From Arenicola marina (Eukaryota > Annelida > Polychaeta > Arenicolidae): a stretch of 64,000 nt of DNA. The notes beneath the pieces were generated by a model. It was not told the origin of the DNA, searched no databases, and saw nothing but the letters and a program-made list of their open reading frames with translations. A program made the position numbers and the translations under genes. Position 1 is the first letter of the stretch. Every line of letters begins with the position of its first letter. Shown here piece after piece: positions 1 through 63,910 of the stretch. Location: NCBI GenBank assembly GCA_964019135.1, contig OZ025253.1:5957059-6021058 (forward strand). The letters run 5' to 3'.

Positions 1-3000
1 GGGTGGAGGTATGGGTTGATAGGTGAAGGTATGGAGGAGGTAAGGGTAGGAAGAGTTGGAGGCAAGGGTAGGGAGGGTGGAGGTATGGGTTGATAGGTGA
101 AGGTATGGAGGAGGTAAGGGGAGGAAGAGTTGGAGGCAAGGGTAGGGAGGGTGGAGGTAAGGGTAGGGAGGGTGGAGGTATGGGTGGATGGGTGAAGGTA
201 TGGAGGAGGTAAGGGTAGGAAGAGTTGGAGGCAAGGGTAGGGAGGGTGGAGGTAAGGGTAGGGAGGGTGGAGGTATGGGTGGATGGGTGAAGGTATGGAG
301 GAGGTAAGGGCAGGAAGAGTTGGAGGCAAGGGTAGGGAGGGTGGAGGTAAGGGTAGGGAGGGTGGAGGTATAGGTAGGGAGGGTTGAGGTATGGGTGGAT
401 GGGTGAAGGTATGGAGGAGGTAAGGGTAGGAAGGGTTGGAGGCAAGGGTAGGGAGGGTGGAGGTAAGGGTAGGGAGGATGGAGGTATGGGTTGATAGGTG
501 AAGGTATGGAGGAGGTAAGGGGAGGAAGAGTTGGAGGCAAGGGTAGGGAGGGTGGAGGTAAGGGTAGGGAGGGTGGAGGTATAGGTGGATGGGTGAAGGT
601 ATGGAGGAGGTAAGGGTAGGAAGGGTTGGAGGCAAGGGTAGGGAGGGTGGAGGTAAGGGTAGGGAGGGTGGAGGTATGGGTTGATAGGTGAAGGTATGGA
701 GGAGGTAAGGGGAGGAAGAGTTGGAGGCAAGGGTAGGGAGGGTGGAGGCAAGGGTAGGGAGGGTGGAGGTATAGGTGGATGGGTGAAGGTATGGAGGAGG
801 TAAGGGTAGGAAGGGTTGGAGGCAAGGGTAGGGAGGGTGGAGGTAAGGGTAGGAAGGGTGGAGGTATGGGTTGATAGGTGAAGGTATGGAGGAGGTAAGG
901 GGAGGAAGAGTTGGAGGCAAGGGTAGGGAGGGTGGAGGTAAGGGTAGGGAGGGTGGAGGTATAGGTGGATGGGTGAAGGTATGGAGGAGGTAAGGGGAGG
1001 AAGAGTTGGAGGCAAGGGTAGGGAGGGTGGAGGTAAGGGTAGGGAGGGTGGAGGTATGGGTTGATAGGTGAAGGTATGGAGGAGGTAAGGGGAGGAAGAG
1101 TTGGAGGCAAGGGTAGGGAGGGTGGAGGTAAGGGTAGGGAGGGTGGAGGTATAGGTGGATGGGTGAAGGTATGGAGGAGGTAAGGGGAGGAAGAGTTGGA
1201 GGCAAGGGTAGGGAGGGTGGAGGTAAGGGTAGGGAGGGTGGAGGTATGGGTGGATGGGTGAAGGTATGGAGGAGGTAAGGGTAGGAAGAGTTGGAGACAA
1301 GGGTAGGGAGGGTGGAGGTATGGGTAGGGAGGGTTGAGGTATGGGTGGATGGGTGAAGGTATGGAGGAGGTAAGGGTAGGAAGGGTTGGAGGCAAGGGTA
1401 GGGAGGGTGGAGGTAAGGGTAGGGAGGGTGGAGGTATGGGTTGATAGGTGAAGGTATGGAGGAGGTAAGGGGAGGAAGAGTTGGAGGCAAGGGTAGGGAG
1501 GGTGGAGGTAAGGGTAGGGAGGGTGGAGGTATAGGTGGATGGGTGAAGGTATGGAGGAGGTAAGGGGAGGAAGAGTTGGAGGCAAGGGTAGGGAGGGTGG
1601 AGGTAAGGGTAGGGAGGGTGGAGGTATGGGTGGATGGGTGAAGGTATGGAGGAGGTAAGGGTAGGAAGAGTTGGAGGCAAGGGTAGGGAGGGTGGAGGTA
1701 TGGGTTGATAGGTGAAGATATGGAGGAGGTAAGGGGAAGAAGAGTTGGAGGCAAGGGTAGGGAGGGTGGAGGTAAGGGTAGGGAGGGTGGAGGTATAGGT
1801 GGATGGGTGAAGGTATGGAGGAGGTAAGGGTAGGAAGAGTTGGAGGCAAGGGTAGGGAGGGTGGAGGTAAGGGTAGGGAAGGTTGAGGTATGGGTGGATG
1901 GGTGAAGGTATGGAGGAGGTAAGGGCAGGAAGAGTTGGAGGCAAGGGTAGGGAGGGTGGAGGTAAGGGTAGGGAGGGTGGAGGTATGGGTGGATGGGTGA
2001 AGGTATGGAGGAGGTAAGGGTAGGAAGAGTTGGAGGCAAGGGTAGGGAGGGTGGAGGTAAGGGTAGGGAGGGTGGAGGTATGGGTGGATGGGTGAAGGTA
2101 TGGAGGAGGTAAGGGCAGGAAGAGTTGGAGGCAAGGGTAGGGAGGGTGGAGGTAAGGGTGGATGGGTGAAGGTATGGAGGAGGTAAGGGTAGGAAGAGTT
2201 GGAGGCAAGGGTAGGGAGGGTGGAGGTAAGGGTAGGGAGGGTGGAGGTATGGGTGGATGGGTGAAGGTATGGAGGAGGTAAGGGCAGGAAGAGTTGGAGG
2301 CAAGGTTAGGGAGGGTGGATGTAAGGGTAGGGAGGGTGGAGGTAAGGGTGGATGGGTGAAGGTATGGAGGAGGTAAGGGTAGGAAGAGTTGGAGGCAAGG
2401 GTAGGGAGGGTGGAGGTAAGGGTAGGGAGGGTGGAGGTATGGGTGGATGGGTGAAGGTATGGAGGAGGTAAGGGCAGGAAGAGTTGGGGGCAAGGGTAGG
2501 GAGGGTGGAGGTAAGGGTAGGGAGGGTGGAGGTATAGGTGGATGGGTGAAGGTATGGAGGAGGTAAGGGCAGGAAGAGTTGGAGGCAAGGGTAGGGAGGG
2601 TGGAGGTAAGGGTAGGGAGGGTGGAGGTATGGGTGGATGGGTGAAGGTATGGAGGAGGTAAGGGTAGGACGAGTTGGAGGCAAGGGTAGGGAGGGTGGAG
2701 GTAAGGGTAGGGAGGGTGGAGGTATGGGTGGATGGGTGAAGGTATGGAGGAGGTAAAGGTAGGAAGAGTTGGAGGCAAGGGTAGGCAGGGTAGCAGTAAG
2801 GAGAGGGAGGGTGGAGGTAAGGGTTGGGAGGGTGGAGGTATGGGTAGGGAGGGTTGAGGTATGGGTGGATGGGTGAAGGTATGGAGGAGGTAAGGGTAGG
2901 AATAGTTGCAGGCAAGGGTAGGGAGGGTGGAGGTAAGGGTAGAGAGGGTGGAGGTAAGGTTAGGGAGGGTGGAGGTATGGGTGGATGGGTGAAGGTATGG

Positions 3001-5535
3001 AGGAGGTAAAGGTAGGAAGAGTTGCAGGCAAGGGTAGGGAGGGTGGAGGTAAGGGTAGGGAGGGTGGAGGTAAGGTTAGGGAGGGTGGAGGTATGGGTGG
3101 ATGGGTGAAGGTATGGAGAAGGTAAGGGCAGGAAGAGTTGGAGGCAAGGGTAGGCAGGGTAGAAGTAAGGAGAGGGAGGGTGGAGGTAAGGGTTGGGAGG
3201 GTGGAGGTATGGGTAGGGAGGGTTGAGGTATGGGTGGATGGGTGAAGGTATGGAGGAGGTAAGGGTAGGAAGGGTTGGAGGCAAGGGTAGGGAGGGTGGA
3301 GGTAAGGGTAGGGAGGGTGGAGGTATGGGTTGATGGGTGAAGGTATGGAGGAGGTAAGGGGAGGAAGAGTTGGAGGCAAGGGTAGGGAGGGTGGAGGTAA
3401 GGGTAGGGAGGGTGGAGGTATAGGTGAATGGGTGAAGGTATGGAGGAGGTAAGGGCAGGAAGAGTTGGAGGCAAGGGTAGGGAGGGTGGAGGTAATGGTA
3501 GGGAGGGTGGAGGTATGGGTGGATGGGTGAAGGTATGGAGGAGGTAAGGGTAGGAAGAGTTGGAGGCAAGGGTAGGGAGGGTGGAGGTAAGGTTAGGGAG
3601 GGTGGAGGTATGGGTGGATGGGTGAAGGTATGGAGGAGGTAAGGGCAGGAAGAGTTGGAGGCAAGGGTAGGCAGGGTGGAAGTAAGGGTAGGGAGGGTGG
3701 AGGTAAGGGTAGGGAGGGTGGAGGTATGGGTAGGGAGGGTGGAGGTATGGGTGGATGGGTGAAGGTATGGGGGAGGTAAGGGTAGGAAGAGTTGGAGGCA
3801 AGGGTAAGGAGGGTGAAGGTAAGGGTATGGAGGGTGGAGGTATGGGTGGATGGGTGAAGGTATGGGTGGATGGGTGAAGGTATGGAGGAGGGAAGAGTAG
3901 GAAGAGTTGGAGGCAATGGTAGAGAGGGTGGAGGCAAGGGTAGGGATGGTGGAGGTATGGGTGGATGGGTGAAGGTATGGAGGAGGTAAGGGTGGGAAGA
4001 GTTGCAGGCAAGGGTAGGGAGGGTGGAGGCAAGGGTATGGAGGGTGGAGGTAAGGGTAGGGAGGGTGGAGGTATGGGTGGATGGGTGAAGGTATGGAGGA
4101 GGTAAGGGTAGGAAGAGTTGGAGGCAAAGGTAGGGAGGGTTAGGTAAGCGTAGGGAGGGTGGAGGTAAGGGTGGATGGGTGAAGGTATGGAGGAGGTAAG
4201 GGCAGGAAGAGTTGGAGGCAAGGGTAGGGAGGGTGGAGGTAAGGTTAGGGAGGGTGGAGGTATGGGTGGATGGGTGAAGGTATGGAGGAGGTAAGGGCAG
4301 GAAGAGTCGGAGGCAAGGGTAGGGAGGGTGGAGGTAAGGGTAGGGAGGGTGGAGGTAAGGGTAGGGAGGGTGGAGGTATGGGTAGGGAGGGAGGAGGTAA
4401 GGGTATGGAGGGTGGAGGTTTGGGTGGATGAGTGAAGGTATGGAGGAGGTAAGGGTAGGAAGAGTTGGAGGCAAGGGTAGGGAGGGTTAGGTAAGCGTAG
4501 GGAGGGTGGAGGTAAGGGTGGATGGGTGAAGGTATGGAGGAGGTAAGGGCAGGAAGAGTTGGAGGCAAGGGTAGGGAGGGTGGAGGTAAGGTTAGGGAGG
4601 GTGGAGGTATGGGTGGATGGGTGAAGGTATGGAGGAGGTAAGGGCAGGAAGAGTTGGAGGCAAGGGTAGGCAGGGTGGAAGTAAGGGTAGGGAGGGTGGA
4701 GGTAAGGGTAGGGAGGGTGGAGGTATGGGTAGGGAGGGAGGAGGTAAGGGTATGGAGGGTGGAGGTATGGGTGGATGAGTGAAGGTATGGAGGAGGTAAG
4801 GGTAGGAAGAGTTGGAGGCAAGGGTAGGGAGGGTGGAGGTAAGGTTAGGGAGGGTGGAGGTATGGGTGGATGGGTGAAGGTATGGAGGAGGTAAGGGTGG
4901 GAAGAGTTGGAGGCAAGGGTAGGGAGGGTGGAGGCAAGGGTAGGGAGGGTGGAGGTATATGTGGATGGGTGAAGGTATGGGGGAGGTAAGGGTAGGAAGA
5001 GTTGGAGGCAAGGGTAGGGAGGGTGGAGGCAAGGGTAGGGAGGGTGGAGGTAAGGGTAGGGAGGGTGGAGGTATGGGTGGATGGGTGAAGGTATGGAGGA
5101 GGTAAGGGTAGAAAGAGTTGGAGGCAAGAGTAGAAAGGGTGGAGGTAAGGGTAAGGAGGGTGAAGGTAAGGGTAGGGAGGGCGGAGGTATGGGTGGATGG
5201 GTGAAGGTATGGAGGAGGTAAAGGTAGAAAGAGTTGGAGGCAAGGGTAGGGAGGGTGGAAGTAAGGGTAGGGAGGGTGGAGGTAAGGGTAGGGAGGGTGG
5301 AGGTATGGGTAGGGAGGGAGGAGGTAAGCGTAGGGAGGGTGGAGGTAAGGGTGGATGGGTGAAGGTATGGAGGAGGTAAGGGCAGGAAGAGTTGGAGGCA
5401 AGGGTAGGGAGGGTGGAGGTAAGGTTAGGGAGGGTGGAGGTATGGGTGGATGGGTGAAGGTATGGAGGATGTAAGGGTGGGAAGAGTTGGAGGCAAGGGT
5501 AGGGAGGGTGGAGGTAAGGGTAGGGAGGGTGGAGG
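1..5535. repeat. G-rich complex satellite array
   Basis: Tandem array, purine-rich on the plus strand. It has two parts: a segment of about 53 bp containing GAAGGTATGGAGGAGGTAAG, and a variable number of 21-bp subunits of the type GGTAAGGGTAGGGAGGGTGG. Successive copies of the 53-bp segment start about 74, 95, 95 and 115 bp apart, a ladder in 21-bp steps. Runs of three G recur every few bases, so the plus strand should be able to form G-quadruplexes. The array continues past the left edge. Pro/Tyr/Leu-rich open frames on the minus strand are composition artefacts. Confidence 0.97.
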
Positions 5536-5799
5536 TACAGACATGGCCAATTCTGTGCCATAAAGGGATGGATAAAGGGAAGGGGATAGGGCACAGCATT
5601 AACCATTGCTATATTTGAAAATAATTTGTTCAAATCAAAGACATCTTCAGACACACATACCACGGTGCCCATGCGATTGGACTTCAATTGGTGTAGCAAT
5701 CTTCTGCGATAGGTATTTTGTCACTGATGGACAAGCCCAAAACGGACAGAGCTCGACCGATGTCTATACGTACATTGGATTCATCCTACGGCCATAGAC
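5536..5799. other. Unique sequence between satellite and LINE
   Basis: Short non-repetitive stretch. No exon, RNA or repeat recognised. Confidence 0.5.
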
Positions 5800-5811
5800 T
5801 GTGACTAAGTA

Positions 5812-6825
5812 TGTGTAAACTTCATTTATTTAACGAGGTTATCAACAGCGCATACACATCTTAATGACTACCTCGAGCATATAAACAATGACATATACAG
5901 AAGAATACACCGAAGTAATAATCACTAATAAGAGGAGAATGCTGCCGTAATCGAGATCGTGATGGAGATAATTCCAAAATATACATTATAGCGACGGGTG
6001 AGCTCTTATTAATAACTGTTAAGACTCAAAATCTACCAGTGCTTATGATATATGTCTGGACAGCCTTAAACAATATGATGTTTTCTTCGATGGTTGATTC
6101 GACGGATCCAAATATTAAAGTATTGCATAATCGAGCTAATTGTTGCATGATGAAATTCGTTATATTAGATAGGTTTTCATCGACTATGGGTTGAATATTG
6201 TTAAATAGTTCTTCACGGTGAATGCTAAACAGAGGACATACCAGTAAAAAATGCACACAATCTTCAGAAGTATCATTACATAAGTTACATATGGCTGAAT
6301 CTATAAATCCGTAAGCATGTCTGTGCGAGTTCAGTCCACTAAGTCCAAGACGCAATCTGCTATGGTTAATCGCCCCATCCCCAGAAAACATATCATACAA
6401 TACATTTGGCAAGCCAAAGTACCTCTGTTTGTATAAAGACTTGAAAGACGAAAAGGACGGTGATTGCTTTACATCGCGTGTTAAGAAGTTCCACGCTCGG
6501 ACAGTGATCCACAAAAAGGAGTTCTTATAATAGGTTTTCTTGGTTACAGGATGATAGAGATGGTCATTGCAACGCAGGGGGTAACGGGTAACGTTTTCTA
6601 ATCGGTCCGATTGGTGCTTAGTCAAGTTGCCATGGAACACAGGGGTAGCATACTCTAATGGTGGTCTAATATAAGCCTTATATATGCACATCTTTGTCTT
6701 CCGATCCATACGCAATGGTAGGCGTTTCAATAGGTTCACCGACTTGGAAGATTTAGCAACCATGTTGTCAACTTGGGCGCTCCAGTTCATATTGCTTGAT
6801 AGAGTGATTCCGAGATGATTCCGAG
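5812..6825 (-). mobile_element. 5'-truncated non-LTR retrotransposon (LINE) with target-site duplication
   Basis: A 1,014-bp insertion in minus orientation. The 12-mer TGTGACTAAGTA lies directly on both sides (5800-5811 and 6826-6837) and is read as the target-site duplication. The reverse-transcriptase frame is open from the 5' break to its stop. It is followed by a roughly 210-bp 3' UTR ending about 20 nt after an AATAAA. Only the C-terminal part of the polyprotein remains, as usual for LINE insertions truncated during target-primed reverse transcription. Confidence 0.88.
6026..6825 (-). pseudogene. LINE reverse transcriptase, C-terminal fragment
   Basis: Open frame of about 266 codons with no start of its own, since the insertion cut off everything upstream. 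Visible landmarks are HLGITLSSNMNWSAQVD, the RT-thumb motif YKAYIRPPLEYATPVF, and a C-terminal Cys/His cluster (CNLCNDTSEDCVHFLLVCP) typical of LINE polyproteins. The catalytic FADD/YADD box and the endonuclease are missing, so the fragment cannot mobilise itself. The frame is undamaged, so the insertion is probably fairly young. Clade not assigned. Confidence 0.85.
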
Positions 6826-6973
6826 ATGTGACTAAGTAGATCTAAGCCGATGTATGTGTGCATAAAATTTGCATTAGACGCATGGTTAAGTGATGTTATT
6901 GGACGCCCGACAGGATGCGCTTCGTGGGTTCCCAAGCGAAATTGTTCTGAGGGTTTTTCTTTTACAAAGTTGC

Positions 6974-6974
6974 T

Positions 6975-7022
<48 letters not shown>

Positions 7023-7037
7023 TCCCCCTCTCTCTCG
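6974..7037. repeat. (CT)n microsatellite
   Basis: About 60 bp of almost pure CT dinucleotide with one A and a short C-run interruption. Confidence 0.95.
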
Positions 7038-7317
7038 TCAAGCGACTGACGGTTTCACGATTCCATAATGACTGACGGGAGCAACAACTTCAGCCCCCGA
7101 CATGAGCGAAATAAGACCTCTTTACGAGTCTCCCTGGCTTCCACCCCATGTAACATGTGGCACCAACGCCTGACCGGGCCTACGAGGGTAATCTGCTGGG
7201 GCTTTTTTCATTCCCGGCACTAAGTAAGCCACTGTTCATTAAGTGATATATTTAATGAACGTATCAGACCTGGGTGGTCGTTAACTTACTGCACGATAAT
7301 GGATCAGCATCGGGTAA

Positions 7318-7635
7318 TTGGCGCTGGGGCATAGAGGGGACAAATTAGCGACGGTGTTGGAGTCTAAGGGCGTGTTCGATTTACCTGAAACAGAAGGGAA
7401 AAGGAAACCGGTTTTAAAACCGGGTTCAACGGTATGCCCACCTAAAGGTAAACGCATCGTGCCATTTGTTTACAGTTTCAGCATGTATGGAGGAAATGGC
7501 CATGTGCTTATGAAGTTATGCCAGCATACATATGCCTCATATGACTGTGTTAGGAAGCGTTTTGATCGATGTTCTGAAGAGGCAGTCAAAAATAAACATC
7601 AAATGCGGTCATGGGCAGTCAGTGGTTGCACTTAA
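7318..7635 (+). CDS. Unrecognised 105-codon open frame
   Basis: Isolated plus-strand frame without splice-site, promoter or homology support. It is not low-complexity: it contains a Lys/Pro-rich stretch (KRKPVLKPGSTVCPPKGKR) followed by FVYSF and several Cys/His. I do not recognise a family. It could be a chance frame, an exon, or a relic of a mobile element, given that LINE fragments lie on both sides. No function is proposed. Confidence 0.15.
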   Translation: MALGHRGDKLATVLESKGVFDLPETEGKRKPVLKPGSTVCPPKGKRIVPFVYSFSMYGGNGHVLMKLCQHTYASYDCVRKRFDRCSEEAVKNKHQMRSWAVSGCT

Positions 7636-9317
7636 AGTATTTGTGATTTTGTTATTTCAAAGAAATTTAATACGAGACTTGACCAAATAGACTACACTAT
7701 TATGTCCCGAAATGAAATTATATTGCTAAATATGGTCGGAAGACAGGTGTATGAAATATTTTACCAGGGAACCAGCTGGTCGAATTCTATTAGACCCTTC
7801 TCTGTGATTACTAGGTCACAACTGTCATCGGGAGGAAGCTCTATCTCGGGGTCTCTTGTGAGACAGTTTGTGGCCATTGGTCCTGCCTGCCTGTAGAGGG
7901 CTTTGAATGCCACGTAACACACGCAGTAACATGTCTCTATAAATGCTACTTCTATGCTATAATATGGATAGGTGCTACCTAAAAAATGCGAGCGTATATT
8001 TATTAATTCAGATATTCCGAGGGGATACATCTAGATTAATATTCAAAATTAATCTCACTTCGGCTTGCCATAAAGGATATCTTTGGCGGGATGACGTAAG
8101 CCATGCACGTGCTTGTGGCATATCATTCGGTTGCTTAGGAACTCCCATTGTGATGTCATATTTATAACATTTTGACGTCACAACTATTCACTATGACAGC
8201 AGCCGATGGGCGGTCACCAAGAGCGCTCTGCTTGGCAACAGACATTTAGCCCGTCGCTTATAAATTAACTTTAATTTGAAGTATACACACATACAGTTTT
8301 AACACTGAATAATTTACTCGTTAATTTTGTGGGGCAGCTGATTTAGTGATTAAAGACATGACATAATAGGCTTCGAACTCTGTTTGCTTGAATATATTTA
8401 TGTACAGCTGATATTTACTCCGAATCCGAAAACGTCTCATGGGGGTTGTTACGCGAAATGAAAGTCCTAAGTCTATGCTTGAAATGGACTTTGAATATGC
8501 ATGCATGTTACCTTAAGAGCTCGCTTGCGCTCGCTATTACTAATAAAATACCGATTATAAAGTAAAAATATTAAATACTTTCCTATGCATGTCTTTCATA
8601 ACGTCATATGAACCTAAATAATCTTTGCTTTCAAAAAGCATTTCACACACATTCTTCAATGAGAATGACCCTAACGATAGACCCGCCTGGGGGCGCTAGT
8701 GGCGTGTCAGAAGATTGAGCGTGATTAGCTGTGTTAGAGACGCTGGTGGCAGCGACCTCGCAAAGCACCTCGCGCGTGGGCTCACTTTCAAGTTCACGGA
8801 CGTTTTCGCTACGCCTCAAGTCCATTCCGTTGCCCCAGGATGGGCAATAATTTGGCGAATTAGGGAGAGAGGAAATGTTTTAATGGTTAGAGAGGCAGTG
8901 TCCGCGAGAGTCTCTGGCAGCAGCTGTGTCAAAGTACGAGAAGGCTGATGGGAAGTAGGGGTATAACGTATAACGAAAATAAGAAACTTCTTAAGATCAC
9001 TTCGAAGTACAAGCGTCTGTCCAATGGCGTCACTCATAGGAGTGTGGAAGGGGGGGGGGTCCAGTGTCCAGTGTCAATTTTTCACAATTCGCAGTGTCGA
9101 ATGTCGATATTTTGCGACATTCGTTGTCGCTTTTTATTCTAAAATGTCACTATCTGTGTCGTTGTCGCCGTTTCAGATCCTCATGCAGTATCTGCATTTG
9201 GGGGTTAATGTCGAATGTCGATTTTTCACATATGCGTGCCGTCATTGGTTTAAACATATTTTTATTTCACAATCGGAAAACAGGCCAGGCCTATCTTAAT
9301 TCCTTTTGCACATAATA
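7636..9317. other. Intergenic sequence, no gene recognised
   Basis: AT-moderate unique DNA. It contains a palindromic TGACGTCA at 8173-8180 and a small perfect inverted repeat (CGAATGTCG at 9098-9106, its complement at 9115-9123, 8-nt loop). Several GTGTCGAATGTCGAT-like repetitions lie around it at 9060-9240. Nothing else was recognised. Confidence 0.5.
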
Positions 9318-10290
9318 ATAATATATAATATAACACACACACACACACCAGTAAATACAGATTCAAAGAATTAACACTATGTTTGCCATTAGTTCGATGA
9401 TTTAACCACGCAGCAATAGGTACACTTGATGTCTATTTAAAGCGTTTACTATTTTCAATATATTTATGTACAGTTGTGAAGATTTCAAAATTTGTATCGT
9501 AAGACAAGAATGGGTTACCAAAAAGAAGTGTGCCTAGTGACATGTGGGTATGAGTAACTATTTTTCCCATCAGTACTTCGCGCTCATTTGTGTATGTTGG
9601 ACAATAATAGAAAAATTGAACGCTATCCCCGCTAGCAGCACCGCAGTTGCACCGCGGGCTGTCGACAATATGCATATGAAATAGATGAGCATTTAAAGTA
9701 CTGCAATTCATCCTTAGACGCGCGTGAATGACATTCGTCTTCCGACTTCCTAGATATTAAAGCTTCCTTAAACTGTGGACGTCTGTTTTCTTACAGAGTT
9801 GTCTTTTAAACTCATTGAAATCGGTAGTTGTTCGAATTTGAACGGGCAGTTCGTTCCACCTTCTGATTGTACTGGGAGCAAAGGAATTTTAAAACGTAGT
9901 TAATCTTGCCCTGATAGGTGTGACACTGTTTGTATTAGAGTTTCGTAGAGCATAGAAAGTTCTAGAATCGACCGTTGGAGGAATTAAATTAAGCAGATAT
10001 TCTGGAACTCTAGTATACAATAGTTTGTGAAAAAGCAATAGTTTAAACCTCTCCCTTCGCGTGGCCAGTGTCTCCCATCCCAGTTCATTGTAAATATGGA
10101 GATGGCTTGTATATCTAATAGCTCCACAAACCTACCTACCCGCCCTCAGCTGCACCGATTCTAATCGAGCCGAGTCTGATTGCGAAAAGCCGTCCCATAC
10201 CACACAAGCATACTCCATTGACGGTCTAATGAAGCTTTTGTACATGCCGTCATTAACCCGCTCCAGACCCCTGCCCCATTCGTTTCGACA
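9318..10290 (-). mobile_element. Degenerate LINE relic ending in a (TG)n tail
   Basis: Minus-strand non-LTR element fragment with stops. The 3' end is a short UTR followed by a TG/AT microsatellite (9318-9347), a common 3' tail in several LINE clades. The 5' end fades out near 10290, so the element is 5'-truncated. It is clearly different in sequence from the LINE at 5.8-6.8 kb and more decayed. Confidence 0.75.
9433..10252 (-). pseudogene. LINE reverse transcriptase C-terminal pseudogene
   Basis: Translation of the minus strand gives MYKSFIRPSMEYACVVWDG, then an in-frame stop, then further collinear RT thumb/connection sequence (NELGWETLATRRERFKLLLF, WNELPVQIRTTTDFNEFKRQ) with two more in-frame stops. 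It ends in a C-terminal segment with a Cys cluster (CNCGAASGDSVQFFYYCP). Order and spacing match the C-terminal third of LINE polyproteins. At least three premature stops make it non-functional. Confidence 0.8.
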
Positions 10291-10838
10291 TAACTATAGC
10301 TGCAGCTCAAACCAAAGGAGACTATTTTTATTCCGTTCCTTTGTTCAGAGTATCAGTCCCGACCCGGGACCCGGTGCTATGCGGCCCCCGGGGTGGCCCC
10401 TGCGGTCTTGTTAAGGTTATATTGGTTGGACAATAGATTCTGACCCCGACGCCTCGAAGGGTTTAACCATCTGTCTTTGTCTTCCCTGGTGGGTCCCCCG
10501 CTACAACACCCCCACACATTATATCAAACGAAGGCGTTATTTCCGTCACCGCTACGAAAGGAAGGTCTATCATCTCCAGCCCAGCCTGTGCGGGCACCGG
10601 AAGTGCTTGATTGTCACACAGAACCGGCCCGAAATTGCGGGACATCGAGCGGAGAAGTAATTGTCTAATGGTATGGGACTCGGCGGTCGACTTTGAAGCA
10701 GGTTTATGACGATATATGTCCGAGGCCGCCCCACCAACGAATTGGCACCAATGGGACTCCGTATGGGAGCGAAAGGTGTCACTTGAAAGTGCTACTGAGT
10801 GTCACGAGATATAGGCTACGCGGAGAGAGAATGGTGCA
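10291..10838. other. Intergenic, nothing recognised
   Basis: Unique GC-moderate DNA with short chance frames on both strands. No splice-flanked exon or repeat seen. Confidence 0.5.
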
Positions 10839-12475
10839 GGAAGGGTTGGAGGTTAGGGTAGGGAGGGTGGAGGGATTGGGAAAGGGGTGAAGGTATGGAG
10901 AAGGTCAGGGCAGGAAGGGTTGGAGGCAAGGGTAGGGAGCGTGGAGGTAAGGGTAGGGAGGATGAAGGTAATGGGGGTAAAGGCAAGGGGGGAAGGGCAA
11001 CACGAGGCGGAGGCCAGGGATGAGGCGAAGGTAAGGGCGGGAGGGCTGGTGGTAAGGGCAGGGAGGGCTGGTGGTAAGGGCAGGGAGGGCTGGTGGTAAG
11101 GGCAGGGAGGGCTTGTGGTAAGGGCAGGGAGGGCTGGAGGTAAGGGCAGGGAGGGCTTGTGGTAAGGGCAGGGAGGGCTGGAGGTAAGGGCGGGAGGCCT
11201 GCATGTAAGGGCAGGGAGGGCTGGAGGTGAGGTCGGAAATGGGTAAGGGCAGGAAGGGCTGGTGGTAAGGGCAGGAAGGGCTGGTGGTAAGGACAGGGAG
11301 GGCTGGTGGTAAGGGCAGGGAGGGCTGGTGGTAAGGGCAGGGAGGGCTGGTGGTAAGGGCAGGGAGGGCTGGTGGTAAGAGCAGGGAGGGCTGGAGGTAA
11401 GGGCAGGGAGGGCTAGAGGTAAGGGCAGGGAGGGCTGGAGGTAAGGGCATGCTGGGCTGGTGGTAAGGGCATGCAGGGCTGGAGGTAAGGGCAGGGAGGG
11501 CTGGAGGTAAGGGCATGGAGGGCTGGAGGTAAGGGCATGCAGGGCTGGTGGTAAGGGCATGCAGAGCTGGAGGTAAGGGCAGGGAGGGCTGGTGGTAAGG
11601 GCAGGGAGGGCTGGTGGTAAGGACAGGGAGAACTGGTGGTAAGGGAAGGGAGGGCTGGTGGTAAGGGCAGGGAGGGCTGGAGGTAAGGGCAGGGAGGGCT
11701 GGAGGTAAGGGCGGGAGGGCTGGTGGTTAGGACGGGGAGGGCTGGTGGTAAGGGCAGGGAGGGCTGGAGGTAAGGGCAGGGAGGGCTGGAGGTAAGGGCA
11801 GGGAGGGCTGGTGGTAAGGGCAGGGAGGGCTGGAGGTAAGGGCAGGGAGGGCTGGAGGTAAGGGCAGGGAGGGCTGGAGGTAAGGGCATGCTGGGCTGGT
11901 GGTAAGGGCATGCAGGGCTGGAGGTAAGGGCAGGGAGGGCTGGAGGTAAGGGCATGGAGGGCTGGAGGTAAGGGCATGCAGGGCTGGTGGTAAGGGCATG
12001 CAGAGCTGGTGGTAAGGGCAGGGAGGGCTGGTGGTAAGGGCGGGAGGGCTGGTGGTAAGGACAGGGAGGGCTGGTGGTAAGGGCAGGGAGGGCTGGAGGT
12101 AAGGGCAGGGAGGGTTTGTGGTAAGGGCAGGGAGGGCTGGAGGTAAGGGCAGGGAGGGCTGAAGGTAAGGGCAGGGAGGGCTGGAGGTAAGGGCGGGAGG
12201 GCTAGTGGTAAGGACAGGGAGGGCTGGAGGTAAGGGAAGGGAGGGCTGGAGGTAAGGGCAGGGAGGGCTGGAGGTAAGGGCAGGGAGGGCTTGTGGTAAG
12301 GGCAGGGAGGGCTGGAGGTAAGGGCGGGAGGGCTGGTGGTAAGGACAGGGAGGGCTGGAGGTAAGGGCAGGGAGGGCTTGTGGGAAGGGCAGGGAGGGCT
12401 GGAGGTAAGGGCAGGGAGGGCTTGTGGTAAGGGCAGGGAGGGCTAGAGGTTGGTTCGGAAATTGGTAAGGGCAGG
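10839..12475. repeat. 21-bp G-rich minisatellite array
   Basis: About 75 units of a 21-mer close to GGTAAGGGCAGGGAGGGCTG plus G, with GTGG/GAGG variants. The first ~130 bp are transitional and contain satellite segments (GGTGAAGGTATGG, GGAAGGGTTGGAGG) of the type seen at 1-5535, so the two arrays share a 21-bp ancestor. Because 21 is divisible by three, all frames stay open and give spurious Pro/Leu-rich frames of up to 374 codons on the minus strand. Regular GGG tracts give G-quadruplex potential. Confidence 0.97.
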
Positions 12476-12994
12476 AAGGGAATTATAGCGGAAGCAGAGC
12501 CATAAGCCTGATTGACGACAGGGGACTGCACCAAACGACATCTTCTCGTCGCACTGTTGGTAATGCTGTAACCTCACTACACGGATGCACAATTCAGCAG
12601 TTAACTGCGAAATGACTCACTAGAGGGCGGCACTAAATTTGGGCTGGCTTGGTGGGTAGCACCCTACGTAGCACGCAACAACCCCCCCCCCCCCCGCGGG
12701 TCATGTGAGGTAATGATGGCGCCGAGCCATGTCCCGGGGGTGAATCCCTCCTCTAGCAGGCGGCAGAGTGACTGAGAGCAGTGACCGTCGGTCAGCATTC
12801 TGCTGGAACAGAGCTGGTGGCAGAGTGGCAGAGAGTGCAACAGATTGGGGCGGACAGAGACAACAGGCGATAAATACTGAAGGAAGGATAGAGCGCCGTT
12901 TGCATTAGCCAGAGCGAAACCCAGATGGGCAAAAAGACAAGGAAAGGCCATGAGATCTGTATTCTGAAGGGGGTGGGGGAGAGGGATAAGGACG
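12476..12994. other. Intergenic with poly-C tract
   Basis: Unique DNA with a homopolymeric C run of about 14 at 12680-12694. No gene recognised. Confidence 0.5.
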
Positions 12995-56015: not shown

Positions 56016-56880
56016 TCAATGCATCTGGGCAAATAAGTTCATACATTTTGGAATCAACTTGATGCAAATAAGTTCATACATCTTGGAATCAACTTGATGC
56101 AAATAAGTTCATACATCTTGGAATCAACTTGATGCAAATAAGTTCATACATCTTGGAATCAACTTGATGCAAATAAGTTCAAACATCTTGAGATCAACTT
56201 GATGCAAATAAGTTGATACATCTTGGAATCAACTTGATGCAAATAAGTTCATACATCTTGGAATCAACTTGATGCAAATAAGTTCATACATCTTGGAATC
56301 AACTTGATGCAAATAAGTTCATACATCTTGGAATCAACTTGATGCAAATAAGTTCATACATCTTGGGATCAACTTGATGCAAATAAGTTCATACATCTTG
56401 GAATCAACTTGATGCAAATAAGTTCATACATCTTGGAATCAACTTGATGCAAATAAGTTCATGCAAATAAGTTCATACATCTTGGGATCAACTTGATGCA
56501 AATAAGTTCATACATCTTGGAATCAACTTGATGCAAATAAGTTCATACATCTTGGGATCAACTTGATGCAAATAAGTTCATACATCTTGGAATCAACTTG
56601 ATGCAAATAAGTTCATACATCTTGGAATCAACTTGATGCAAATATGTTCATGCAAATAAGTTCATACATCAATTTGATGCAAATAAATTGATACATCTTG
56701 GAATCAACTTGATGCAAATAAGTTCATACATCTTGGAATCAACCTGATTCAAATAAGTTCATACATCAACTTGATACAAGTAAGTTCATACATTTTGGGA
56801 TCAATTTGATGCAAATCAGTTTATACATCTTGGAATCAACTTGATGCAAATAAGTTCATACATCTTGATGAAGCTCATGA
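56016..56880. repeat. 35-bp minisatellite in gene A intron 2
   Basis: About 24 units of AATCAACTTGATGCAAATAA plus GTTCATACATCTTGG, with a few truncated units (56460, 56640). It begins about 22 bp upstream of the exon 3 acceptor in transcript direction. Confidence 0.97.
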
Positions 56881-57271: not shown

Positions 57272-57466
57272 CTCTGTCACGTAGTCGTAAGGGCTGAGGC
57301 AGGCGTTGATGCTGTAGCAGTCCCTGTTCTTGCCCCGCAGCTGGGTGTAGAAGTAGGGGTCCATCTCGATAAGGACGCCCGTCCACCCCAGTCTCTGCTC
57401 CAGGTACAGAGTGTTGGACGACCGCTCCCCGTCCAGCGCGCCGCACTCGACGAAGAAACCACTCCT
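57272..57466 (-). CDS. FkbM-family methyltransferase gene A, exon 2
   Basis: 65 codons, phase 0 at both ends (acceptor TTTCCCAG, donor GAG before GTAGGC). It carries the SAM-binding start of the Rossmann fold, GFFVECGALDGE (motif I, residues about 137-148), then SNTLYLEQRLGWTGVLIEMD with the acidic residue after beta strand 2, then GKNRDCYSINACLS. This is the best-conserved part of the family. It is 195 bp, the same length as exon 2 of gene B, differing at about six residues. Confidence 0.92.
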
Positions 57467-60695: not shown

Positions 60696-61091
60696 TCACT
60701 TCGCGCCCAACAATAAATCCTGTTTAAAGAAGATGAAGTCGTCGACAAAGAGCGCGATGTCTGGGTCGTGGTGGTGTATGTCCCTGTGCGTCACGTATCC
60801 CTGGGCCTCCATGAAGTCCCTGTAGGCCTGCTTGCCCGAGCGGCCGTGCGCGTACTCCACCGACAGCACACCGATCTCCAGGCGCTCGAAGGGCACGGTC
60901 CGCAGGATGTCCAGCTCAAACCCCTCCACGTCCAGACTGAAGTAATCCACGCGAGTCCGGCCCAGAGCCAGAAGGATGGACTCCAGCGGCAGGCACGGCA
61001 CCCGTCGGCGGACAGCCCCCGTCGCCATGGTGACGCCAGACCCCGTGTCCGCCAGCTGGCCGCCACCCCCCGACGATTCCTTGAACTCCAT
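60696..61091 (-). CDS. FkbM-family methyltransferase gene B, exon 3
   Basis: 131 codons plus stop, phase 0 after TTTCGCAG. It starts MEFKESSGGGG, equivalent to MFEES in gene A, but has no GPAGPHP repeats. The core RVDYFSLDVEGFELDILRTV, IGVLSVEYAHG, GKQAYRDFMEAQGYVT and VDDFIFFKQ aligns throughout with gene A, with many substitutions (roughly 55-60% identical by eye). The tail is slightly longer. All hallmark residues, including DVEG, are kept, so the enzyme is probably active if exon 1 is intact beyond the window. Confidence 0.87.
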   Translation of the reverse strand: MEFKESSGGGGQLADTGSGVTMATGAVRRRVPCLPLESILLALGRTRVDYFSLDVEGFELDILRTVPFERLEIGVLSVEYAHGRSGKQAYRDFMEAQGYVTHRDIHHHDPDIALFVDDFIFFKQDLLLGAK

Positions 61092-61424
61092 CTGCGAAAT
61101 GTGTCATCCTTTACAAGGTGTCGTTCAATGGTGTCAAATGCCTTATTGCGTCAATAAATGAAGTAAGCGTGTTTCAGGAAAAAAACACGTGAACAAACTG
61201 TGAAATCTAATGCGCAAACAATGACCACATAGTTAGCAAATATTATATCAATTAAAGAGAAAGCTTAAAGTAATAGGCTTTTGCTTTTATATTTCCCAAT
61301 GATGAATGTATTACATTTCGGTGAAACATCGCTAGTTGTTCAGGATTTTGATGCTTTAACTCCCATAAATCATTGTGGTATTCCGATAGAACTGTTTCCC
61401 ACATTACTTTCACCAACGAATCCA
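61092..61424. other. 3' part of gene B intron 2
   Basis: Unique AT-rich DNA without recognised features. Confidence 0.4.
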
Positions 61425-63620
61425 CATGACAGTTTACCACAGTGATATAGTTGTGAGGACATGACAGTTTACCACAGTGATATAGTGATGAGGACATGAC
61501 AGTTTACCACAGTGATATAGTGATGAGGATACGACAGTTGACAGCAGTGATATAGTAATGAGGATAGGACAGTTTACCACAGTGATATAGTAATGAGGAT
61601 AGGACAGTTTACCACAGTGATATAGTGGTGAGGAGAGGACAGTTTATCACAGTGATATAGTGGTGAGGAGAGGACAGTTTACCGCAGTGATATAGTGGTG
61701 AGGAGAGGACAGTTTACCACAGTGATATAGTGGTGAGGAGAGGACAGTTTACCACAGTGATATAGTGGTGAGGAGAGGACAGTTTACCACAGTGATATAG
61801 TGATGAGGATAGGACAGTTTACCGCAGTGATATAGTGGTGAGGAGAGGACAGTTTACCACAGTGATATAGTGGTGAGGAGAGGACAGTTTACAACAGTGA
61901 TATAGTGGTGAGGATACGACAGTTTACAGCAGTGATATAGTAATGAGGATAGGACAGTTTACCACAGTGATATAGTGGTGAGGAGAGGACAGTTTACCAC
62001 AGTGATATAGTGGTGAGGAGAGGACTATTTACCGCAGTGATATAGTGGTGAGGAGAGGACAGTTTACCACAGTGATATAGTGGTGAGGAGAGGACAGTTT
62101 ACCACAGTGATATAGTAGTGAGGAGAGGACAGTTTACCACAGTGATATAGTGATGAGGACATGACAGTTTACCACAGTGATATAGTGATGAGGATAGGGC
62201 AGTTTACCGCAGTGATATAGTGGTGAGGAGAGGACAGTTTACCACAGTGATATAGTGGTGAGGAGAGGACAGTTTGCCACAGTGATATAGTGGTGAGGAG
62301 AGAACAGTTTGCCACAGTGATATAGTGATGAGGACATGACGGTTTACCACAGTGATATAATGGTGACGAGAGGACAGTTTACCACAGTGATATAGTAATG
62401 AGGATAGGACAGTTTACCACAGTGATATAGTGGTGAGGAGAGGACAGTTTACCACAGTGACATAGTGGTGAGGAGAGGACAGTTTGCCACAGTGATATAG
62501 TGGTGACGAGAGGACAGTTTACCACAGTGATATAGTGGTGAGGAGAGGACAGTTTACCACAGTGATATAGTGGTGAGGAGAGGACAGTTTACCACAGTGA
62601 TATAGTGGTGAGGATACGATAGTTTACAGCAGTGATATAGTAATGAGGATAGGACAGTTTACCACAGTGATATAGTGGTGAGGAGAGGACAGTTTACCAC
62701 AGTGATATAGTGGTGAGGAGAGGACAGTTTACCGCAGTGATATAGTGGTGAGGAGAGGACAGTTTACCACAGTGATATAGTGGTGAGGAGAGGACAGTTT
62801 ACCACAGTGATATAGTAGTGAGGAGAGGACAGTTTACCACAGTGATATAGTGATGAGGACATGACAGTTTACCACAGTGATATAGTGATGAGGATAGGGC
62901 AGTTTACCGCAGTGATATAGTGGTGAGGAGAGGACAGTTTACCACAGTGATATAGTGGTGAGGAGAGGACAGTTTGCCACAGTGATATAGTGGTGAGGAG
63001 AGAACAGTTTGCCACAGTGATATAGTGATGAGGACATGACGGTTTACCACAGTGATATAATGGTGACGAGAGGACAGTTTACCACAGTGATATAGTAATG
63101 AGGATAGGACAGTTTACCAGTGATATAGTGGTGAGGAGAGGACAGTTTACCACAGTGACATAGTGGTGAGGAGAGGACAGTTTGCCACAGTGATATAGTG
63201 GTGACGAGAGGACAGTTTACCACAGTGATATAGTGGTGAGGAGAGGACAGTTTGCCACAGTGGTATAGTGATGAGAACATGACAGTTTACCACAGTGATA
63301 TAGTGATGAAGACATGACGGTTTACCACAGTGATATAGTGATGAGGATACGACAGTTTACCACAGTGATATAGTAATGAGGATAGGACAGTTTACCACAG
63401 TGATATAGTGGTGAGGAGAGGAGAGTGATATAGTGGTGAGGAGAGGACAGTGTGCCACAGTGATATAGTGGTGAGGAGAGGACAGTGTGCCACAGTGATA
63501 TAGTGGTGAGGAGAGGAGAGCGATATAGTGGTGAGGAGAGGACAGTGTGCCACAGTGATATAGTGGTGAGGAGAGGACAGTTTACCACAGTGATATAGTG
63601 GTGAAGAGAGGACGGTTTAC
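61425..63620. repeat. 35-bp minisatellite in gene B intron 2, abutting exon 2
   Basis: About 62 units of GACAGTTTACCACAGTGATA plus TAGTGGTGAGGAGAG. On the transcribed (minus) strand each unit reads ACTATATCACTGTG followed by GTAAAC, i.e. a copy of the exon 2 end and its splice donor. Truncated units occur near 63420-63530. A 20-unit (700-bp) block is duplicated: AGGATACGAC at 61911 and its match at 62611, AGGATAGGGC at 62191 and 62891, AGGACATGAC at 62331 and 63031. Confidence 0.97.
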
Positions 63621-63815
63621 CACAGTAATATAGTCGTGCGGGCTGAGGCAGGCGTTGATGCTGTAGCAGGCCCTGTTCTTGCCCCGCAGCTGGGTGTAGA
63701 AGTAGGGGTCCATCTCGATGAGAACGCCCGTCCACCCCAGTCTCTGCTCCAGGTAGAGAGTGTTGGACGACCGCTCCCCGTCCAGCGCGCCGCACTCGAT
63801 GAAGAAGCCCGGTCT
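63621..63815 (-). CDS. FkbM-family methyltransferase gene B, exon 2
   Basis: 65 codons, phase 0 at both ends (acceptor TTGGCAG, donor GTG before GTAAAC). It carries motif I GFFIECGALDGE and WTGVLIEMD, and differs from gene A exon 2 at about six residues with very few synonymous changes. The last residues (DYITV) depart from gene A (DYVTE) and are what the flanking minisatellite unit would encode. The 195-bp length, identical to gene A, fixes this donor rather than any of the copies downstream. Confidence 0.9.
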
Positions 63816-63910
63816 CTGCCAACATAAACACCCGTGGCTGGTAAATAACGAACACACGGCAAGTCACATAAAGACAATGAGATCACGGTGATTGTGAATC
63901 ACTTTCGTAC

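Follow-up and report, generated by a model that had tools for sequence, protein, structure and literature searches.

A 35-bp minisatellite that copies an exon end and its 5' splice site in an intron of an FkbM methyltransferase gene

Introduction

The original account of the amphioxus "mirages" is reportedly that of Canestro in 2002. In PMC3087553, the term is applied to exon-intron boundaries that have been duplicated in tandem in the manner of a minisatellite, the units being 10-160 bp long, in Adh3 and in the globin genes BflGb6 and BflGb9; PGBD5 and TnC are added in PMC3902484, and regular splicing is reported as undisturbed in both papers. A second such system is the human IFI6 (6-16) minisatellite, which carries several donor sites (Turri 1995, as cited in PMC4526556). 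The part of an earthworm metallothionein paper that was available describes minisatellites in an intron and contains no statement on junction copies. No annelid report and no genome-wide count of such arrays was found in the open literature searched.

The array described here lies in gene B, a Star-like FkbM methyltransferase gene on the minus strand of the window (the whole 64,000-nt stretch that was analysed, C6:5957059-6021058 of an 867-Mb assembly). Like the amphioxus mirages, it consists of tandem boundary copies beside the real boundary, with splice signals in many units. The amphioxus mirages show length instability; arrays at several genes are found in both genomes. What differs here is the setting, an annelid-like genome with 64 units at one donor and, within a small sample, an array across about every fifth or sixth donor. 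In IFI6, as in gene B, repeat units downstream of the exon supply several donor sites; however, according to the same source, two downstream units of IFI6 are used as donors and three mRNAs result, whereas every exact downstream copy in gene B would lead to a stop if used. Thus, the statement of the first-pass annotation that no case arranged like this has been described does not hold, since amphioxus mirages and IFI6 are the same kind of arrangement. The Rogers model of intron gain by AG/GT tandem duplication (discussed in PMC3087553) resembles gene B in that the duplication carries splice signals, but the gene B intron is not new, its position being common to paralogues without the gene B array. 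Human duplicated genes with internal tandem repeats, described in PMC2812944, include minisatellites of ~30 bp in recent paralogues, some of them at exon-intron boundaries; those repeats alter transcripts or make introns, whereas arrays of the gene B type seem confined to an existing intron.

Gene B and the position of its exon 2 donor

Exons 2 and 3 of gene B (Table 1) code for a protein of the Star-like family, assigned to Methyltransf_21 (FkbM) by Pfam (E = 1.2e-15), the closest named homologues of which are those of Capitella and Helobdella, with arthropods next; exon 1 lies outside the window (L041). A search for the erythrocruorin-linker family PF16915, which is not known outside annelids, yielded four matches. 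The end of exon 2 is fixed by homology. In the protein alignment, P0001 reads ...LSPQPYVTQ-MEYKESSGG against ...LSPHDYITV-MEFKESSGG in gene B, and since protein relatives align exactly at this point, the exon should end right before GTAAAC, where the first-pass annotation had placed its end. The terminus (63621) reads ...GACTATATTACTGTG and is followed by GTAAACC; it is also written ...TATATTACTGTG, with the donor from 63620. The phase-0 junction between exons 2 and 3 is the same in a ten-member cluster of paralogues (PIE/MEFKES; here and below, the slash marks the splice point) and in the paralogue gene A (VTE/VMFEES), and because relatives, cluster and gene A have it in common, the gene B donor lies inside unit 1 of the array. 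Judged from sequence, use of this donor is plausible. With GTG/GTAAAC, which has no A at -2 and no G at +5, gene B stands alone among 30 paralogous exon-2 donors; the other 29 read GAG/GTRRG (18), GCG/GTGAG (9) or GCG/ATGAG (2, without GT).

Table 1. Features of gene B and of the paralogue gene A in window coordinates
Feature	Position	Strand	Remarks
Exon 2, gene B	63621..63815	-	Methyltransf_21; final 14 nt are the exonic share of repeat unit 1; start read from AG at 63816-63817
Authentic donor GTAAAC of exon 2, gene B	63615..63620	-	place set by protein relatives
Intron 2, gene B	61092..63620	-	2,529 nt, mainly array; 48 exact GTAAAC besides the real donor
Exon 3, gene B	60696..61091	-	coding part and stop
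35-bp minisatellite, 64 units including the genic one	61428..63638	-	unit ACTATATCACTGTG/GTAAACTGTCCTCTCCTCACC
Exon 2, gene A, matched part (paralogue, for comparison)	57272..57463	-	donor GAG/GTAGGC; no array at donor
Unrelated 35-bp array, intron 2 of gene A	56029..56867	-	stops ~34 nt short of the exon-3 acceptor

Some other family members have unusual exon 2 ends. L007 and L030 read GCG/ATGAGA where their relatives have GCG/GTGAGA, i.e., the usual GT is absent, and L030 also contains an in-frame TAG; these are possibly decayed copies. In L025, the donor GAG/GTGGGTGGGTGGGTG shows a short GGGT repeat that begins at the splice site itself.

The array in intron 2 of gene B

Tandem Repeats Finder (TRF) returns a single 35-bp array (63.8 copies, 90% matches), in agreement with the roughly 60-fold array on the transcribed strand given in the first-pass annotation. 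When it is cut unit by unit, 64 units are obtained (61 of 35 nt, two of 25 and one of 33), the last of which was cut at 35 nt by the script and is repeat only in part. Unit 1 is the genic junction and has private bases that are absent from the array consensus. The unit does copy the exon end together with the 5' splice site, as had been proposed, with dozens of almost identical decoys downstream of the real donor: GTAAA is kept in 50 of the 64 units, while GCAAA occurs in seven, GCACA in three, ATAAA in one and other variants in three. All five units after unit 2 lack GTAAA, a possible sign that decoys are selected against and that the array is not neutral; as variants are spread by whole blocks, however, this was not counted as a test. 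Units 15-30 reappear nearly unchanged as units 35-50, which indicates that the array was enlarged block-wise in addition to unit by unit.

With up to 3 mismatches allowed, a 20-nt core of the junction has 61 matches in the window, all within the array and all on the transcribed strand, and none in five dinucleotide shuffles of the first 60 kb of the window; a chance origin of the repeated core is excluded. Across the complete 867-Mb assembly, the core is matched 53 times with 0 or 1 mismatch, always at C6:6018490-6020692, which is the gene B array. Because every such match sits in it, the array was born locally. At 2 mismatches, 20 matches are found, seven in the array and 13 scattered, the latter being at chance level (a reversed control pattern gives 32). 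A foreign satellite inserted at the junction was considered as well and rejected, the unit being found nowhere else in the assembly at 0-1 mismatch.

Compared with the amphioxus definition of a mirage, the gene B unit spans an exon-intron boundary, with 14 nt of exon, the donor and intron sequence, and the array adjoins the authentic boundary, unit 1 being the real junction in the place set by homologues. As for length instability, gene B was seen in one haplotype only, in which the block repetition is internal to the array, and variable unit numbers are found in the paralogue cluster described below. Intron 2 itself was not made by duplication, because the same phase-0 position is used in gene A, which has no donor array, and in the cluster, which has another unit.

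All 48 exact downstream copies of GTAAAC would lead to a premature stop if used, after 11 extra codons with the first exact copy and after 12 with the following ones printed. Wrong donor choice in gene B would thus be unproductive, since every exact decoy would lead to a stop.

A second donor array in a cluster of paralogues

A search of the genome with its own protein yielded 96 matches of the gene B family. Ten of these paralogues (L008-L014, L016, L022 and L024, at C6:6.07-6.29 Mb) carry a different, 39-bp array next to this exon-2 donor; in L022 and L024, the match contains a TGA. The 39-bp unit contains GACAGAG/GTAAGGG, and the real donor of L008 reads ATAGAG/GTAAGTACATTCCCGGCTGATCG. According to TRF, the cluster array starts ~12 nt inside the intron and, by that measure, does not span the exon end; the real donor fits the 39-bp unit with a small gap, the exonic share being just about four bases. 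The ten paralogues have 15-24 unit matches although their upstream flanks share 96.6-99.7% identity in the 14 pairs listed, a spread that shows apparent turnover of array length. Donor-bearing arrays are not peculiar to gene B in this genome. The consensus 39-bp unit also contains the palindrome TGACGTCA, which is CRE-like.

Donors and acceptors in myosin and kinesin genes

Splice sites were further surveyed with 250-bp flanks in 60 of the 77 myosin-head matches listed. Donors and acceptors were located by a score based on consensus frequencies, and a site was called spanned when an array extended 3 nt or more into the exon and 20 nt or more into the intron. Five of the 60 donors and 11 of the 60 acceptors were left out as unclear, and the donors of L054 and L085 were set by hand. 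Arrays span 11 of the 55 usable donors vs. one of the 49 usable acceptors (Fisher p ~0.005), the spanning donor arrays having units of 19 to 128 bp in 2.0 to 9.6 copies within the fetched flank. Array edges that lie 30 nt or less from the splice site but do not cross it have similar numbers at donors (seven) and acceptors (six). Two of the 11 spanned donors are doubtful, namely L095 (3 exonic bases, two copies) and L106 (a weak donor), and L111, an apparent acceptor-spanning array, was dropped at first and restored in the stricter count, which gives 9/53 donors vs. 2/50 acceptors (p ~0.053).

Among ten of the 133 kinesin matches listed, the myosin score threshold leaves eight donors (otherwise nine), and of the nine acceptors, that of L115 is found only in a widened range. 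One donor of these eight or nine is spanned, that of L118, by 3.8 copies of a 71-bp unit that includes NLVDLAGSERQGKTG; none of the acceptors is. For myosins and kinesins together, 12 of 63-64 donors and one or two of 58-59 acceptors are spanned (12/63 vs. 1/58, p ~0.002), and the strictest combined count is 10/61 vs. 2/59 (p ~0.03); the asymmetry weakens under the stricter counts. Repeat coverage rises from the exon into the intron at donors and falls within 40 nt of acceptors, and array-edge densities, which are biased by the 250-bp flanks, are highest at both splice sites. Repeats with a period of 10 or more make up 44% of the window, and in twelve 10-kb stretches around family genes their share ranges over 3-69%, so that much of the effect is simply that of a minisatellite-crowded genome that tolerates the crossing of donors. 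The window arrays with GGTAAGGG (1-5537 and 11030-12444) showed no clear exon alongside on reading 5400-12600.

Two further observations concern these searches. The short myosin exon matches at C7:32812561-32814321 and C1:64332097-64332207 lie within open frames of 1401 and 1760 codons; these frames are perhaps stop-free intron arrays that are able to mislead gene prediction. Five kinesin matches on the contigs C390, C536 and C504, which were passed over in the sample as apparently belonging to another organism, contain no in-frame stops other than TAA/TAG. This is the pattern of ciliates in which UAR codes for glutamine, and the three contigs are probably those of a contaminant or symbiont.

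Origin of the exon end and competing explanations

Along exon 2, genes B and A differ at 2, 1, 2 and 1 of 42 bases in successive segments and then at 7 of 21, i.e., at 7/21 of the last vs. 6/168 of the first exon bases (Fisher p ~9e-5). Between B and the cluster, the counts are 2, 15, 1 and 8 of 42 bases and then 10/21, and between A and the cluster 4, 14, 1 and 7 of 42 and then 5/21, whereas pairs from remoter lineages differ all along the exon. The likeness of exon 2 among A, B and the cluster (compared in L001, L002 and L008) is thus patchy, a mosaic for which conversion between the paralogous genes is the best explanation. Apart from two close sister pairs (0 and 1), other family pairs have 4-11 differences in the last 21 bases; in gene B, these bases fall beyond the tract that it has in common with A, and their divergence is of the usual size for the family. 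Hence, the sharp A/B contrast at the exon end is better explained by a conversion tract that stopped short of the junction. The first-pass annotation had the exon end differing from gene A exactly where the array unit dictates; this is true of five of the seven differences, at which the array consensus equals B, while it equals A at one and neither gene at one.

Two origins had been offered in the first-pass annotation, growth of the array from the junction or overwriting of the exon end, and growth is favoured because the unit is unique at 0-1 mismatch, exon 2 is a mosaic and unit 1 has private bases. That the array arose within the intron and later overwrote the last exon 2 bases by conversion is unlikely: the concentration of A/B differences at the exon end, and the agreement of the array with B at most of them, speak for it, but the similarity of A and B further upstream is confined to patches, which is the mark of paralogue conversion, the divergence of the exon end is ordinary for the family, and no other source of the unit was found in the assembly at 0-1 mismatch. 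Nor is the array overwriting unit 1 now, since unit 1 retains its private bases. It is very improbable that the true exon 2 donor lies elsewhere and that the resemblance is incidental. By the rules of U1 pairing, the gene B donor is weak, and this, together with its unlikeness to the donors of the other paralogues, was counted in favour of another donor; against it, exon 3 begins with MEFKES in phase 0, P0001 has exactly one residue for the V before MEYKES, and the same phase-0 position is used in gene A and the cluster.

Regulation of gene B splicing by the array, in which decoy donors would sequester U1 or slow splicing and thereby yield retained introns or unproductive transcripts, is unlikely. 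The 48 exact decoys, each leading to an early stop, would suit such a role, as would donors crossed or abutted by arrays at many genes, but the units differ from gene to gene, the unit numbers of the ten young paralogues do not suggest constraint, and amphioxus mirages are reported, in PMC3087553 and PMC3902484, without interference in splicing.

The reading to which we assign a probability of about 0.85 is that the gene B array is a mirage minisatellite, a tandemly duplicated donor-spanning 35-bp segment whose later copies are intron filler. A 35-bp stretch over the exon-2 donor (~14-18 nt of exon and ~17-21 nt of intron) would have been duplicated in tandem and expanded by unequal exchange, in single units and blocks, to 64 units. 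We infer that the upstream-most copy alone serves as exon end and donor and that the array is neutral, selection seeing the first copy only; splicing errors at decoys would be lost and would not yield variant proteins. Most likely, these arrays are neutral duplications in which splicing uses the first copy alone. The same process may have hit many genes in this genome, with donors crossed more often than acceptors, perhaps because additional acceptor copies ahead of an exon would take precedence in splicing, to the detriment of the gene. That mirages are genome-wide, i.e., that in at least a tenth of internal exons the 5' splice site has been multiplied in tandem within the next intron, with a donor bias and a spliceosome that routinely chooses the first of several to dozens of sites, has in our view slightly better than even odds.

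Implications

Gene B is a real, extreme mirage of a kind that is already known. What is possibly new is the frequency of mirages in this genome and their bias towards donors, both resting on a small sample. For annotators, it is a warning not to take the exon-like repeats of such introns for exons. If the genome-wide rate is true, these genes would form a natural experiment on the choice of a 5' splice site among identical copies every few dozen bases. Such a rate would also show that minisatellites can enter gene edges harmlessly, and it would raise the question of why donors seem more tolerant of them than acceptors.
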